The notes under the pieces are model-generated. The model made no database searches, was not told the DNA's origin, and saw nothing but the letters and a program-made list of their open reading frames with translations. Source: a virus. From it: 23,583 bases of DNA. Below, piece after piece: positions 2,629-15,818 of the stretch. The stretch lies in the IMG/VR virus record IMGVR_UViG_3300009086_000107, positions 1 through 23,583 of that record. One strand, given 5' to 3'. Positions within the stretch are counted from its first letter, which is position 1. The number at the start of each line of letters is the position of its first letter. A program made the position numbers and the translations under genes.

Positions 2629-3318
2629 TTATGCATCTTCATTTATTAATACTAGTTCGTTTAACGCTGGATTAGGATCTTCTGTCAATAACTGGAACTC
2701 AAATGGATCGTATACTGTCAAGATTGCGCCAGGAATGATACCAAGTTCGTCTGTTCTTAACAACAATCCATCAAATGTCAATAGACGTGAACCAGCTTCA
2801 GACAATAAAATCTCATCTGGTACCGGTGTTGCGGTGACCGGTAGAACAACAGGTATTGCACCGCCACCGTCTGCGATCTTAATACGTAATGTATCTGATA
2901 CCTGTGAGTTAACTACCCTAAACTCGATGACTACCGATATCTGATTGTAATCTGGTGTTGCAACTATCTTTAAATTAGTGATGATTGCACGTGGTTCAAA
3001 ACGTTTGACAGAAGCACGAATCTGTTGAATCATCTTATCCGCAGTAGTCTCGTCCATCATCTCGAACAATAGACCACCAAGGTCACCACCAAATGCGGGT
3101 CTGAACGGTTTCTCGAATCGATTGGTCAACAATAGATTCTTGAGTGACTGTTTTACCGCAGCCGCATCCACTTTACGTAAGACATCTCCATCACCAGAAG
3201 AGTATGTAGGCGCAACCCGTGCGTCTAATGTCAAATCGACATCAGAAAATGCACGTTCTCGGGTGACCCTAGGACTCTTATTGAGGTCTTTGTCGTCCGG
3301 TGAAAATATTTTTGCCAT
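2629..3318 (-). CDS. gp25: Baseplate wedge subunit gp25 with C-terminal extension
   Basis: 229 aa. Residues about 50-150 form the gp25/GPW domain: VKQSLKNLLLTNRFEKPFRPAFGGDLGG is split across 55-82 and is followed by LLFEMMDE. This is the part of the wedge that starts sheath polymerisation on the gp6-gp25-gp53 core. T4 gp25 is only 132 aa. Here about 45 residues precede the domain and about 80 follow it, ending in acidic Leu-rich stretches (LLTFDG, LLLRTDE, LLTEDPN, LVLINEDA). ATG 3318 is preceded by an AAAGG 12 nt away, a long spacing. A late promoter box lies 24 nt upstream. The extensions could interact with other wedge or sheath proteins. The family call is secure; the role of the extensions is unknown. 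Confidence 0.91.
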   Translation of the reverse strand: MAKIFSPDDKDLNKSPRVTRERAFSDVDLTLDARVAPTYSSGDGDVLRKVDAAAVKQSLKNLLLTNRFEKPFRPAFGGDLGGLLFEMMDETTADKMIQQIRASVKRFEPRAIITNLKIVATPDYNQISVVIEFRVVNSQVSDTLRIKIADGGGAIPVVLPVTATPVPDEILLSEAGSRLLTFDGLLLRTDELGIIPGAILTVYDPFEFQLLTEDPNPALNELVLINEDA

Positions 3319-3341
3319 GTCTCAGTGAAACCTTTTTCTTT

Positions 3342-3349
3342 TATTTATA
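3342..3349 (-). promoter_or_regulatory. T4-type late promoter box for gp25-gp6
   Basis: Exact TATAAATA on the minus strand, starting just downstream of the stop of the 207-aa gene (3353) and 24 nt upstream of the gp25 ATG. It would re-initiate late transcription for gp25, the 63-aa protein and gp6 inside the long baseplate block. Confidence 0.68.
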
Positions 3350-3352
3350 CTA

Positions 3353-3976
3353 TTATTCGGGTAGTATCTCTAACAACTCGGACTGAGTTTGTAAAGTACC
3401 GTTGAATGTGGTGTTTATATCATAACCAAAAGAAACATCAAAGTTTTCATTGACTTTAGGCATAGAAACTAGTATACTTGCAACCAGATCACCACTAGGA
3501 TCAAAGGTGTCATATGCCAGTTCTATCTCATCGTAGTCTAGATAATCTTTCCAAAACACTGCGAGATCATAACTCTTACGGGGATCACTCTTACCGTTCT
3601 TATCGATCAACTGGTAACCAATACCTTGACCGTTTCTTCGCAGTTGGTTGAAACCACTAGGGTATTCACCTTTGTATCCGCTCGCAGTAAAGTCCTGATA
3701 GGGTTCGTATACACCGTCAGACACAATCAATCTATGTTGTGCAAACTCTTCGTTAGTAGAGATCAAGACCATTGCATTTGCATGGAGAACTAGATTACGT
3801 GCAACCTGTGCACGATCGATAGGGCCACTGAACATGTCGTTGTATAGTCTATCAAACTGTGTACGTGATCCTAGTGCACCAAGGAACTTGGCACAGGTAA
3901 TGCCTGGCGCAAGACTAGTAGACGAACTGATCTCTTTCCCTGCGGGATTATACTTGGGGTCAACTAATATTTTCAT
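3353..3976 (-). CDS. Baseplate-hub-associated protein, possible degenerate M15-like fold
   Basis: 207 aa, not recognised with certainty. Visible landmarks are ITCAKFLGALGSRTQFDRLY near 27-46, a helix LVLHANAMVLI, RLIVSDGVYEP, NGQGIGYQLIDKNGKSDP, and FWKDYLDYDEIELAYDTF followed by SILVSMPK. That order resembles M15 D,D-peptidases of phages: helix, a GYR-type strand, SxHxxGxAxD, then a FDQLI-like helix and a WVHVS strand. However, the positions of the three zinc ligands would be Asn, Gln and Leu here, so an enzyme is unlikely. The start overlaps the stop of the beta-helix gene by 4 nt (ATGA), which suggests co-translation with the hub genes. Could equally be an unrelated structural protein. Confidence 0.78.
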   Translation of the reverse strand: MKILVDPKYNPAGKEISSSTSLAPGITCAKFLGALGSRTQFDRLYNDMFSGPIDRAQVARNLVLHANAMVLISTNEEFAQHRLIVSDGVYEPYQDFTASGYKGEYPSGFNQLRRNGQGIGYQLIDKNGKSDPRKSYDLAVFWKDYLDYDEIELAYDTFDPSGDLVASILVSMPKVNENFDVSFGYDINTTFNGTLQTQSELLEILPE

Positions 3977-5430
3977 GTGTTCTCATTCACCTTGAATCTC
4001 TTACTTCTGTTATCGGATGGATTGTTACCAATCAACTCTTGTCCGAATCTCATCGTACCCTTCTTGTTTGCAGATCGTCCTATGTTCGTAGGTATGTTAA
4101 CCTTGAACTCACTGTTCAGTTTACCTTCACCTACAAGGAAACTGGTGAACTTACCGTTGTTGAGATTAGACGGATCCCGTAACTTAGAACGTATCTCTGA
4201 TATGGTAGGATCGTGACTAAACAACTCGGAATAGTCATCTGATTTAAGTATCTTCTCTTCCAACTTATCATCAACACTTACACCTCGAATACCATAACGA
4301 CTTGTAGATAACTGTAGTTCTACAATTGCAGGGTTGGGTAGAGGTGCAGTGGGTGGAAGAGGAACGTAAGGCATGATGCCAGGTTTTGGTATTCCCGGCT
4401 TTACAACACACGGTGCTTCTTTTAGAGCCTTGACCGCAGCCTTTGCACCTAACGCAAAGTCAGCGTAGGTTGATTTGATTGCATAGTCTGCATGGAATGC
4501 TTCGGTTGCACGACCTACCAGTGAACCATAGAAGGTAGACAGGTTAGTCAGTCCGCCAGGCATACCACCGTAAGTCTTACCGTAGTAGTCCATCATAGGG
4601 CCACCAAACGTTCCCTTGTGACCAATCATTGATACGTGTCGTGCAGTTATGTTTGCAGTAGAAGACGCAGCGACCCACTCGTTTACCGCAGTGGTAATCA
4701 GATCCACACCCGTCAAGAGTTCGGTTGATGCTTCGGTAAACATATTCAGGTTACCTTTAGTGATCAAGTATCGATCACCTAGAGTGGTAGACGTATTCAT
4801 ACCTACAACCTGTTCACCTTTGTTCCCCTTGATAGTCGAGTTGTCGTCTCGGTTTACTGTGGTGGTTCGTCTTCCTTTGACATTAACAACTTGATCTCCA
4901 GCCACATCGACATTATAATCACCACCGACAGAAACATTAAAATCTCCGTCCACCCGTAAATCCACATTTCCTTTATATACGAGATCACCTTCACCCTCCA
5001 CTATAGTTTTAGAATCCCCACCTACAACCTCGATACGTTGTTTGCGGGTTGATATGACAACACTACCATCTGCACGTAATTCAATACCTGCACCAGTACG
5101 GTGTTTAATTAATACACGTTCACCGCCAGGAGTGTCGTCCATCTCAAACGAATGACCACTAGGAGTTTCAGATACCTGATTGTAAGGAAAGACAGAGGGT
5201 TCTTGATCCGGTAGATCTAAGTCAACTCCAAAGTCTCCGCCACCCAGTGAAAGGTTATTGACTCTCTCACCAGTTGCAGCTTTGTTAATACTATTATCGT
5301 AGAAGTAGTCCCGTTTAGGATACTCACCACTAGGATCGGAAAATCCGTCCTTGGGGATACCTTCTGTAACCTCTTTCGCAATACCCTGTTTTTCTACTCG
5401 GGTCTTGTACTCATCAGAAAAGTTTGTCAT
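3973..5430 (-). CDS. gp5: gp5-like spike protein: C-terminal beta-helix part as a separate gene
   Basis: 485 aa. Residues 29-41 (GFSDPSGEYPKRD) match the T4 gp5 linker GFSDPTGQYPRR. Residues 87-105 (SETPSGHSFEMDDTPGGER) match T4 gp5 TESGHIQEFDDTPGQER, the entry to its needle domain. From about 150 to 215, VxGDxxVxV-type octad repeats (GDFNVSVG, GDYNVDVA, GDQVVNVK) are the triple-stranded beta-helix that forms the membrane-piercing spike. The repeats are fewer than in T4. A Pro-rich hinge at about 345-370 (PGIPKPGIMP, PLPPTAPLP) leads to a C-terminal region of unknown role with no T4 counterpart. The lysozyme domain of T4 gp5 is absent here. Both ends overlap neighbours by 4 nt. Confidence 0.88.
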   Translation of the reverse strand: MTNFSDEYKTRVEKQGIAKEVTEGIPKDGFSDPSGEYPKRDYFYDNSINKAATGERVNNLSLGGGDFGVDLDLPDQEPSVFPYNQVSETPSGHSFEMDDTPGGERVLIKHRTGAGIELRADGSVVISTRKQRIEVVGGDSKTIVEGEGDLVYKGNVDLRVDGDFNVSVGGDYNVDVAGDQVVNVKGRRTTTVNRDDNSTIKGNKGEQVVGMNTSTTLGDRYLITKGNLNMFTEASTELLTGVDLITTAVNEWVAASSTANITARHVSMIGHKGTFGGPMMDYYGKTYGGMPGGLTNLSTFYGSLVGRATEAFHADYAIKSTYADFALGAKAAVKALKEAPCVVKPGIPKPGIMPYVPLPPTAPLPNPAIVELQLSTSRYGIRGVSVDDKLEEKILKSDDYSELFSHDPTISEIRSKLRDPSNLNNGKFTSFLVGEGKLNSEFKVNIPTNIGRSANKKGTMRFGQELIGNNPSDNRSKRFKVNENT

Positions 5431-13457: not shown

Positions 13458-14141
13458 ATGGCACTACCTAAGTTAAATGAAACACCCAAGTACAGTTTGA
13501 CAGTCCCTTCAACGGGAAAGGAATTGAGATACAGACCGTACCTTGTGAAAGAAGAAAAGATCCTTCTCATGGCATCATCGTCAGAGGATCCCAAACAGAT
13601 TATGAACGCAGTGCATGATACAATTGCTGCCTGTGTGGAAAACATTGATATACGGTCACTGACAACGTTCGATCTGGAGTATATCTTTATCCAGTTACGT
13701 TCTAAGTCAACGGGTGAGACGAGTGAAATACTCATCAAGTGTCCTAAGTGTGAGAGTCAGCAGAAGGTGACGATCCCACTGAACGAGATTGCAGTTACTG
13801 AGACTAACGTAAATCCGGTAATTAAGATATCAGATAATGTGACTGTGGTAATGAAGTACCCTAGTTATCAAGATATACCCAGTGACACAGATGATGTAGG
13901 TTTCACATTAATCGCAGCCAGTATCAAGGAAGTGATTCATGGAGATGAGAAGGTTGATATTGATGATGAACCGATCGAAGCAGTTATAGCATTCTTAGAG
14001 TCTATGACAAACGATCAGTTTCAGTTGATTGCAAAGTTTTTCGAAGACGCACCATCGGTGAAGTATGATCTAGAGTTGGTGTGTCAGAGTTGTGGTGAAA
14101 TCTCTGATATTGAAATAAAAGGAATGCAAAGTTTTTTTTGA
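13458..14141 (+). CDS. gp26: gp26-like baseplate hub/tape-measure assembly protein (zero frame)
   Basis: 227 aa (T4 gp26 is 208). YRPYLVKEEKILLMAS at about 25-40 is the signature of the T4 baseplate protein family. A zinc-ribbon pair is visible: C95/C98 (KCPKCES) and C209/C212 (CQSCGE). T4 gp26 and gp51 are needed for hub assembly around the tape measure and are thought to behave like tail assembly chaperones. The gene ends with TTT TTT TGA inside a run of eight T, and a different frame continues without a proper start (see 14138). GGAG lies 8 nt before ATG. The gene would therefore give two products, a normal one and a longer -1 fusion of about 292 aa. Confidence 0.88.
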   Translation: MALPKLNETPKYSLTVPSTGKELRYRPYLVKEEKILLMASSSEDPKQIMNAVHDTIAACVENIDIRSLTTFDLEYIFIQLRSKSTGETSEILIKCPKCESQQKVTIPLNEIAVTETNVNPVIKISDNVTVVMKYPSYQDIPSDTDDVGFTLIAASIKEVIHGDEKVDIDDEPIEAVIAFLESMTNDQFQLIAKFFEDAPSVKYDLELVCQSCGEISDIEIKGMQSFF

Positions 14142-14203
14142 TATGCCTCGCACATGAAGAGCTTTCTAATTATTTTAAAGTAAACTTTTTGTTGCAGAGG
14201 CAT
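14118..14203 (+). promoter_or_regulatory. Candidate programmed -1 ribosomal frameshift signal
   Basis: Three elements line up. (1) The heptamer T TTT TTT at 14132-14138, a canonical X XXY YYZ site read in the gp26 frame and followed at once by TGA. (2) AAGGA at 14119-14123, 8 nt before the heptamer, as for the internal Shine-Dalgarno stimulator of dnaX. (3) ATGCCTC at 14143-14149 pairs perfectly with GAGGCAT at 14197-14203, a 7-bp stem starting 4 nt after the heptamer with a 47-nt loop. A -1 slip continues into the next frame for 65 codons. Confidence 0.62.
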
Positions 14204-14335
14204 CATAATTATACATTGACAGAACTAGATATGATGATACCGTGGGAGAAAGAGGTACATACCATTCTCCTACTTCAAGCAATGGAAGAAGAAAAAGAAG
14301 CTAAAGAGAAGGCGAAACATGGCAATAACACTTGA
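14138..14335 (+). CDS. gp51: gp51-like hub assembly segment, expressed as -1 extension of gp26
   Basis: 65 codons in the -1 frame relative to gp26: ICLAHEELSNYFKVNFLLQ, HHNYTLTELDMMIPWEKEV, then an acidic/basic helix EEEKEAKEKAKHG. The coding character begins right after the T run. The only standard start there is TTG 14138, which lies 14 nt after the nearest AAGGA; the first in-frame ATG is half-way in. The position between gp26 and the tape measure corresponds to gp51 in T4, and to the T part of lambda G/GT. WExE-type helices are common in such chaperone tails. I read it as the C-terminal part of a gp26-gp51 fusion; independent TTG initiation is the alternative. Its end overlaps the tape measure start by 17 nt. 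Confidence 0.75.
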   Translation: MICLAHEELSNYFKVNFLLQRHHNYTLTELDMMIPWEKEVHTILLLQAMEEEKEAKEKAKHGNNT

Positions 14336-15818
14336 AGACGTAGTCCTCGAACAAATGGGCACCAACGAAACTCTCGGTATGTTAGTCGATAACACTAACA
14401 TTCTGATCGAGATGGAAGGTGACAGTTTCGCGGGTCTTGAGTTACTCAACGAACAGTTTGAGGACTTCCTTGGCCTTGTGCGTAAACAATATGCACTTGA
14501 GGACGAGGCACGCCGTGAGAAAAGGGATGGACTCGTACCTGCTCCTCAAGATGACGAGGAGAAGTTGAAACCTGAAGAAGCGTACAAAGGCATTGGAATG
14601 CCTATCATCACTTTAGGTGCGGGACTCGCGGCATTTGCAAGCAACTTTGTTAAAAGTTTTGTTGAGAGCACCAAGAAGATGTTTAGGATAAACGTTTTCA
14701 AACCAATAGAGTCTATATTTGGATTCATCGGTGATAAACTCAAGTCAATCGGAAACTTCTTTAAGAACATCGGTAGTAAGATATCTGGTCTATTTGGTGG
14801 AATATCAACCAGTGGTTTAGGCATTGTAGATAACATCAAGAAGATGTTGTTGCCTGTCACAGAGTTCGGTGCGAACTTGATGAAGAGTCCTTTTGTGAGG
14901 TTCTTAGCGGGTGTTGGTAAACTACTAGGTAGGATTGCTTGGCCCTTTGTCGTGGCGTACGAACTCTATCAGAATCTGACGGAAGAGTTTGCAAAGTCAA
15001 CGGGCGGCATTATGGGTGGTATTGGTGCAGCCATTTGTGGAGTTTTAAAGGCGGCCGTAGACTTCTTTGCAATCTTCTTAGACCTACCCAAAGACATTAT
15101 TAGTTGGTTTGCTGGTTTAGTTGGGTTTGACGGTGTAGAGAAGGCACTAGACTCCTTTACTTTCGCCGGTCTTGGTGATCTTCTTGTCGATGGTTTATCA
15201 GATCTCATTGGATTCGCAGTTGATTGGCTTGGCAACCTCTTCGGTGATATCGGTACGGATATAAAAGATTTCGCAAGTGGGTTTAGCTTTGAGGACTTTG
15301 GTAAAAACATAGTCAGGGCAGTGTTACCTGCTCCAGACTTCTTAGCGTTTGAGGTGCCTTCAATAGAGGTACTTGGTAAGACTATTGGTGGAGGTTCGAT
15401 TGACCTCAATCCAATTCCTGCCTCAGTCTATGAGTATGCGGGACTGAATGCGCCAGAGGGTTCTTCTTCTGAAACTCCTAGTGGTGGTGGTGATACAACG
15501 ACAAACAATGTGTCGACTGTAGGAGGTACTGAGGTAACAGGGGGAGATAAACTATCTTCTGAAAACATTGAGGTATTGCGTCAACAGTTTAATGCGGAGG
15601 CATTGCAGGCAATTAATGAAGAGAATGCGATCACGAATGCGATCAATACAGAGAGTGTTACTAATGTAGGTAGTTCACAGAGCGCCCCAATAGTGATTCA
15701 GGACAACTCTGTGAACTCCTCCAATCAATCAAACGTCAATCAAAGTGTCCAGAGTCGAAGATCAATGCGATCCCCGACTCGGAACAATGGGACACGAGCG
15801 AGTGCATATGAAGCTTAG
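14319..15818 (+). CDS. gp29: Tape measure protein (gp29-like)
   Basis: 499 aa. N-terminal 1-90 is helical and acidic (MLVDNTNILIEMEGD, FEDFLGLVRKQYALEDEARR). About 95-330 holds several hydrophobic amphipathic segments (PIITLGAGLAAFASNFV, GRIAWPFVVAYELY, GIMGGIGAAICGVLKAAVDFFAIFL) typical of tape measure proteins that line the tube and can enter the cell membrane. The C-terminal 390-499 is Ser/Asn/Gln-rich and low in complexity. No catalytic motif is seen. It directly follows the gp26/gp51 chaperone-like pair, where tape measure genes lie in most long-tailed phages. At about 1.5 angstrom per residue, 499 aa predicts a tail of about 75 nm, shorter than T4. Sequence likeness to T4 gp29 (590 aa) is weak; the call rests on context and composition. 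Confidence 0.76.
   Translation: MAITLEDVVLEQMGTNETLGMLVDNTNILIEMEGDSFAGLELLNEQFEDFLGLVRKQYALEDEARREKRDGLVPAPQDDEEKLKPEEAYKGIGMPIITLGAGLAAFASNFVKSFVESTKKMFRINVFKPIESIFGFIGDKLKSIGNFFKNIGSKISGLFGGISTSGLGIVDNIKKMLLPVTEFGANLMKSPFVRFLAGVGKLLGRIAWPFVVAYELYQNLTEEFAKSTGGIMGGIGAAICGVLKAAVDFFAIFLDLPKDIISWFAGLVGFDGVEKALDSFTFAGLGDLLVDGLSDLIGFAVDWLGNLFGDIGTDIKDFASGFSFEDFGKNIVRAVLPAPDFLAFEVPSIEVLGKTIGGGSIDLNPIPASVYEYAGLNAPEGSSSETPSGGGDTTTNNVSTVGGTEVTGGDKLSSENIEVLRQQFNAEALQAINEENAITNAINTESVTNVGSSQSAPIVIQDNSVNSSNQSNVNQSVQSRRSMRSPTRNNGTRASAYEA

Follow-up and report, generated by a model that had tools for sequence, protein, structure and literature searches.

A candidate −1 frameshift cassette joining gp26 to a gp51-like tail in a T4-like virus and its relatives

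The locus described here very probably encodes the T4-like pair of tail assembly chaperones, the two members of which would be made from one gene by means of a −1 frameshift. What was computed is the cassette itself, its conservation in phase, the constraint on the slippery heptamer and on both arms of a downstream stem, the lack of usable start codons in many relatives and the homology of the fusion protein to gp51. The first-pass annotation of this DNA had proposed that a −1 frameshift yields gp26 and a gp26 fusion in the manner of the lambda G and GT proteins, and conservation, start codons, constraint, profile comparisons and structure all support that proposal.

The window, that is, the whole stretch of DNA that was analysed, is a virus record of 23,583 bases, presented as one strand; those of its features that are discussed below are on the plus strand. 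The gp26-like gene (13458..14141) encodes a protein of 227 residues, the putative short tail assembly chaperone (TAC-N). It ends in a run of eight Ts (14132-14139), which is read in the gp26 frame as AGT TTT TTT TGA. The heptamer T TTT TTT occupies positions 14132..14138 and, by a base-by-base check, abuts the TGA stop codon (14139..14141), so that the earlier placing of the heptamer directly before the stop was exact to the base. The −1 frame tail (TAC-C, 14138..14335) would add 65 residues to gp26 after the shift. The predicted fusion has 292 residues, the size that had been anticipated, and includes the peptide QSFFLICLAHE. A perfect 7-bp stem, formed by ATGCCTC (14143..14149) and GAGGCAT (14197..14203), begins 4 nt past the heptamer, precisely as it was first described. 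The sequence AAGGA, resembling a Shine-Dalgarno (SD) motif, is located at 14119..14123 with a spacer of 8 nt between it and the heptamer.

Slippery site and its conservation

A run of seven Ts is not rare in the window as such, and this argument was rejected: there are two overlapping matches, compared to 4.65 expected, and 90 of 100 shuffles contain at least two. What goes beyond chance is the place of the run, the sole one of its kind, which lies in phase where gp26 ends, together with its conservation.

Relatives were collected as 126 loci from viral contigs, queried both with gp26 and with the tail; one of the two locus sets consists of the best 80 of at least 591 confirmed loci. Some contigs are included twice, and the resulting 127 loci, counting the window, contain 97 distinct sequences. 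From these, 60 representatives (the window included) were chosen at less than 90% gp26 identity. The −1 ORF is shorter in L015, L043 and L045 because the contig ends there, and none of the three is among the 60. A larger set of 78 sequences comprises the 60 representatives, seven named phages and 11 loci picked by hand from 28 further ones. Of the rest of these 28, L176 and L177 have no stop within the locus and most others are near copies. Because the sequences are related, no p-value is given for conservation of the heptamer.

Each of the 60 representatives has a short ORF that is extended by an overlapping −1 ORF, the latter being open for 61-69 codons from the heptamer. Where the short ORF ends, the heptamer stands in phase and reads T TTT TTT in 41 representatives, T TTT TTC in 15, T TTT TTA in two and T TTT TTG in one. 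The pattern T TTT TTN is therefore kept in 59 of the 60, the exception being G TTT TTT. The gp26 stop codon follows at 0 nt in 52 representatives and at 3 nt in the other eight. The expectation that an alignment of relatives would preserve the T run and the −1 phase has thus been borne out.

The first Phe codon of the heptamer is TTT in all 60 representatives, compared to 344 of 490 Phe codons (70%) elsewhere in gp26. The codon that ends in the first base of the heptamer encodes Asp in 34, Ser in 30, Asn in 10, Gly in two, Ala in one and His in one of the 78 sequences, and despite this variation in residue its last base is T in 77. The ratio of observed to expected synonymous identity reaches 2.5 at codon −3 and 1.7 at codon −2, both in the heptamer; codons 0, 1 and 3 of the −1 frame have about 2.2 and codons 17-20 have 1.6-2.5. 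The peaks of synonymous constraint therefore coincide with the heptamer and both arms of the stem. Codons 23, 26 and 27, which are away from the stem, are also raised, with a value of about 1.6.

The AAGGA motif upstream of the heptamer, part of the cassette as first proposed, is present, but a functional role for it did not stand up. The Gly codon inside it has a ratio of 0.78. The residue is invariant and the codon varies freely (GGA in 20, GGT in 18 and GGG in 15 of the 60 representatives). The motif was rejected as a conserved stimulator and is probably incidental.

Start codons and downstream RNA structure

The first codon of the −1 ORF in the window is TTG (14138), and the closest SD-like sequence, AGGA, ends 14 nt upstream of it. 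The statement that the 65 codons have no good start of their own is thereby upheld. In 32 of the 60 representatives there is no ATG, GTG or TTG within the first 16 codons of the −1 frame, in line with the expectation that the TTG need not be kept. The first ATG or GTG comes at codon 16 or later in 46 representatives, and the first ATG in 56. Most representatives carry the motif FFL[IV].L[SA]H..L.N, which begins at the heptamer and lies within those 16 codons. Since the conserved protein sequence starts at the heptamer and 32 of the 60 have no start codon there, separate initiation would hardly be possible in these phages.

These findings bear on the alternative of a tail made as a small protein in its own right, its translation starting at TTG 14138 or resuming past the gp26 stop by re-initiation. 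The records of S-SM1 and S-PM2, in which gp51 is annotated apart, are in its favor, and so are the ATGs that five phages (S-SM1, S-PM2, VH7D, 6E35.1a and Atu_ph07) have between codons 3 and 6 of the −1 frame, in addition to the TTG of the window. A start at codon 6 or earlier occurs in 22 of the 78 sequences, including S-PM2, S-SM1, VH7D and 6E35.1a, and in these re-initiation may take place. An independent start with its own ribosome site had been named at the outset as evidence against a fusion; the early starts exist, but a search for four SD words near those of the representatives found none closer than 14 nt. Furthermore, the absence of ATG, GTG and TTG in 32 of the 60, and of ATG in 56, applies to the very codons that span the motif, and a re-initiated protein would have no use for an in-phase T TTT TTN. 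The tail does not qualify as a free-standing gp51 either, because the 65-codon ORF lacks a proper start and a match to the full length of gp51 is seen for the fusion alone. A separately made tail protein is given a slim chance, and the frameshift is the preferred reading.

Stimulatory RNA structures downstream of the slippery site are common, although not universal, in frameshifted chaperone genes. Folding of 75-nt segments of the 78 sequences gave a mean z of −2.36 at +3 from the end of the heptamer, with 71% of the sequences below −1.5. The mean z is −1.58 at +8, −1.26 at +30, −0.64 at +83 and −0.09 at +110. Four segments upstream of the site gave means of −0.09 to −0.45, and the one straddling it −0.54. 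The 75-nt segment of the record itself has a z of −3.35 at +3; its 100-nt fold is weak (z −1.58, with 13 of 200 shuffles as good).

The 7-bp stem belongs to a part of the set. In the 'Arg clade', which consists of the 37 representatives whose codon 20 encodes Arg and was defined after the alignment had been inspected, at least six of the seven pairs are held in 31. Pair-keeping changes are found in this clade at the last pair (C-G to G-C in four representatives) and at one other (C-G to U-A in one). In total, 229 of 259 pairs are held, which was matched in 1 of 5000 swaps of whole arms among sequences. Over the whole set, taken as 59 distinct rows, the share of pairs actually seen was equalled by 38 of 500 shuffles and the covariation score by 9 of 500; a partner displaced by +2 scores as high on covariation. 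In the remaining 23 of the 60 representatives the stem is absent. The forecast that the stem would be kept along with the T run thus proved right for the Arg clade and wrong for the others. A single stem common to the whole set was rejected, as RNAalifold found no consensus pairs in the 60 representatives and the 7-bp stem fails in those 23. The putative stimulatory structure downstream of the heptamer is consequently supported by the mean z of the 78 sequences and by covariation in 37 representatives, and is not one shared stem. In the window, the 3' arm has the support of synonymous constraint, pairing and the 75-nt fold.

Hairpins of a different kind occur in other lineages, such as one of 14 consecutive base pairs in S-PM2 (z −4.02). 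Judged by z, the structure signal is absent in Aswh_1 (−0.11), S-SM1 (−0.93), L154 (−0.03) and L168 (0.01). A very strong nested hairpin is predicted for Atu_ph07 (in the region of position 4184 of locus L148), with −32.1 kcal/mol for 80 nt and a z of −8.16 for 75 nt.

Slippage could in principle occur during transcription instead, if RNA polymerase slipped on the T run and some mRNAs with one extra or two missing Us encoded the fusion. The run of eight Ts found at the site in 43 of the 78 sequences, the window included, would suit such slippage. However, 29 of the 78 have only six uninterrupted Ts (T TTT TTC in 26, T TTT TTA in two and T TTT TTG in one) and yet keep the codon phase of the heptamer. 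Six Ts are too short for efficient slippage by the polymerase. The constraint on the stem arms and the structure signal also fit ribosomes rather than the polymerase, for which a very slim chance is left. A sequencing or assembly error that splits a true in-frame fusion gene has a negligible probability: errors in homopolymers are common in general, but the same phase recurs in seven named phage genomes and throughout 97 distinct sequences, which stem from many metagenomes, and the site is not one plain homopolymer, since 19 of the 60 representatives lack seven Ts and eight stop one codon later.

Relation to gp26 and gp51 of T4 and to other chaperones

The gp26-like protein belongs to PF12322 (E=1e-60; 205.6 bits compared to a cut-off of 24.5) and matches phrog_150 (E=2e-64). 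The tail ORF matches positions 58-116 of the 121 of phrog_634, the baseplate hub assembly catalyst gp51 (E=9e-19). Profiles were compared using hhalign, the fusion profile being built from 66 fusions (Atu_ph07 was left out) and that of T4 gp51 from nine T4-type gp51 proteins (L131-L133 and L138 were left out). In L138, a T4-type contig, the gp51-like frame (positions 3001-3746) stops after 120 codons and similarity runs to residue 247. The gp26-like family aligns with T4 gp26 (E 7.6e-32). The tail alone aligns to columns 201-256 of the gp51 profile with a probability of 97.1; against the T4 gp26 profile it gave nothing, and neither did the reversed-sequence control. The fusion matches the T4 gp51 family end to end, columns 1-292 against 1-256, with a probability of 99.8% and an E-value of 7.6e-28. 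The tail had been called gp51-like, which is correct as far as those columns are concerned; it is the whole fusion, and not the tail, that is the counterpart of gp51.

T4 gp26 and gp51 align to each other with a probability of 99.7% (E 7e-26), and Pfam assigns both to PF12322. On this evidence the two T4 proteins are paralogues. As the fusion matches gp51 over its entire length and gp26 and gp51 are paralogous, gp26 would represent the short form of the chaperone and gp51 the long form. In T4, where genes 26 and 51 are adjacent and transcribed divergently, the short and long chaperones are, by this comparison, the products of two paralogous genes, whereas here one gene and a −1 shift would provide both.

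The AlphaFold models have a pLDDT of 88 for gp26 and 83 for a T4-type gp51. Inspected by eye, the gp51 model has nearly the same order of elements as gp26, with the addition of one short strand and C-terminal helices. In a structural comparison, the first ~90 residues of the gp26 model were matched by 3fgx with Z 8.2 and by 2ob9, the HK97 tail assembly chaperone, with Z 7.4, the next row being at Z 4.7. The alignment with 2ob9 is at 3.1 Å over 84 residues, and its Foldseek E-value of 2.3 is not significant. Foldseek found no match in the Protein Data Bank at E ≤ 0.001 for either model, the second structural comparison gave nothing above Z 4.8 for gp51, and searches of the same bank with both sequence profiles produced nothing of use. 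The resemblance of the gp26 model to the HK97 chaperone is thus suggestive. It covers the N-terminal ~85 residues; unlike 2ob9, gp26 has a further ~130 residues that bear CxxC motifs. The gp26 fold is widespread among models of viral proteins, including those of Bacillus phage SP-15 and Campylobacter phage CP220.

The CxxC motifs form a split pair (C95, C98, C209 and C212). All four cysteines are invariant across an alignment of 44 sequences, outside of which are S-SM1 and S-PM2. The gp26 proteins of these two phages (loci L129 and L150) are missing most of the CxxC cysteines, so that the presumed zinc site is not shared by all.

The arrangement resembles that of lambda gpG and gpGT in that a short chaperone gene would be subject to a −1 shift close to its end, directly before a tape measure gene (here a presumed one), and by analogy a longer form of low abundance would be expected. 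The likeness is one of arrangement. The slippery heptamer of lambda is GGGAAAG, which differs from the T run found here, and gp26 has the split CxxC pair.

The ORF that follows the tail (14319..15818) encodes 499 residues and overlaps the tail ORF by 17 nt. It has no match to T4 gp29 and no confident family in Pfam, and its PHROGs matches are weak; identification as the tape measure protein by homology was rejected on these grounds. Where the ORF is complete within the locus, its length ranges from 357 to 918 residues, leaving aside Atu_ph07 with 164. The corresponding ORF of S-PM2 has 1167 residues by annotation, and the length differs strongly even between the near relatives L097 and L098. 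The gene is likely to be that of the tape measure protein on account of its position, and variation in length is to be expected of such a gene.

Proposed mechanism and distribution

From sequence comparison we infer that the shift occurs, that it does so at some frequency and that its products act as chaperones. Most ribosomes would stop at TGA and release the gp26-like short form of 227 residues (TAC-N). A minority would slip back by one base with two Phe-tRNAs on T TTT TTT, helped by the RNA stem 4 nt downstream of the heptamer. The ribosomes that have slipped would read 65 more codons and make the long form of 292 residues (TAC-NC). By analogy to lambda gpG and gpGT, the role of the short form would be to coat the tape measure protein, and that of the long form to bring in tail tube subunits through its C-terminal helices.

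Among 14 named phages that were fetched, seven (S-PM2, S-SM1, VH7D, 6E35.1a, Aswh_1, Astolliot and Atu_ph07) carry the cassette in its T TTT TTC form. In the Agrobacterium jumbo phage Atu_ph07, the gp26-like gene ends in T TTT TTC and is followed by a −1 ORF of 75 codons, which is a presumptive counterpart only. Three phages, T4, Aeromonas phage 31 and RB43, have two genes and no such overlap. RB43 (L151:2501-3794) differs from T4 in having the genes in tandem, the gp51-like gene being first and the overlapping gp26-like gene next.

The heptamer is lacking but a −1 ORF is present in the remaining four phages (Ag3, 3M and 207E48.1, which belong to the Ackermannviridae, and K475, which is unclassified), as well as in 18 contigs similar to Ag3. 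The −1 ORF is kept and the heptamer is missing in all 22 of these loci (L140, L142, L146, L147 and L180-L197). In place of T TTT TTN they have NTT TTY, separated from the stop by one codon, and the five bases that begin with the stop are TAATG in six, TAATT in 15 and TGATC in one. Slippage of a single tRNA on T TTY, or re-initiation, may possibly operate in these phages.

An evolutionary scenario to which we give about an even chance is that the T4-like pair, be it the product of frameshifting or of two genes, is homologous to chaperones of the HK97 and lambda type and that the common ancestor used frameshifting. In the T4 branch, duplication of the gene (giving gp26 and gp51) would then have taken the place of the shift, the Ackermannviridae would have turned to the weaker T TTY or to re-initiation, and many branches would have acquired, in that same position, a stimulatory stem of their own.

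Vladimirov, Gautam and Davidson (2022, Virology 566:9-15) reportedly found that several T4-like groups have retained frameshifting, whereas separate genes are used by the T4 group. A passage of a 2016 review describes G-T frameshifting as widely conserved except in T4 (PMC5009743). Statements in two later papers cite Vladimirov et al. 2022: according to one, frameshifting is replaced in some T4-like phages by two genes, of which one is short and the other a longer fusion (PMC10885494), and according to the other, poly-T sequences are known −1 signals in the TAC-N genes of T4-like phages (PMC12846349). As far as these citing passages go, the principle has already been published for T4-like phages, and the locus described here agrees with it in having a short and a long form and a poly-T signal in TAC-N (PMC10885494, PMC12846349). 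The link of the T4 pair to G/GT, which had been put forward as an inference from this sequence, is therefore supported but not new, and equating gp26 and gp51 with G and GT was rejected as a new claim, being cited to Vladimirov et al. 2022 in the same passages (PMC10885494, PMC12846349). Compared to that work, as known here through the papers citing it, the difference is an uncultivated clade with its own covarying 7-bp stem. A search of open-access titles and the openings of abstracts, in which the RNA stem was not queried as such, found neither this clade nor a stem at this site. The apparently covarying stem of the clade is the main added detail.

Taken as a whole, the comparison lends strong support to a switch at the level of translation in marine T4-like phages for which public records show two separate genes in the tail region. 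The ratio of the short to the long chaperone would thereby become testable in cyanophages. This reading would also account for the appearance of T4 gp51, which looks like gp26 with an extra tail.
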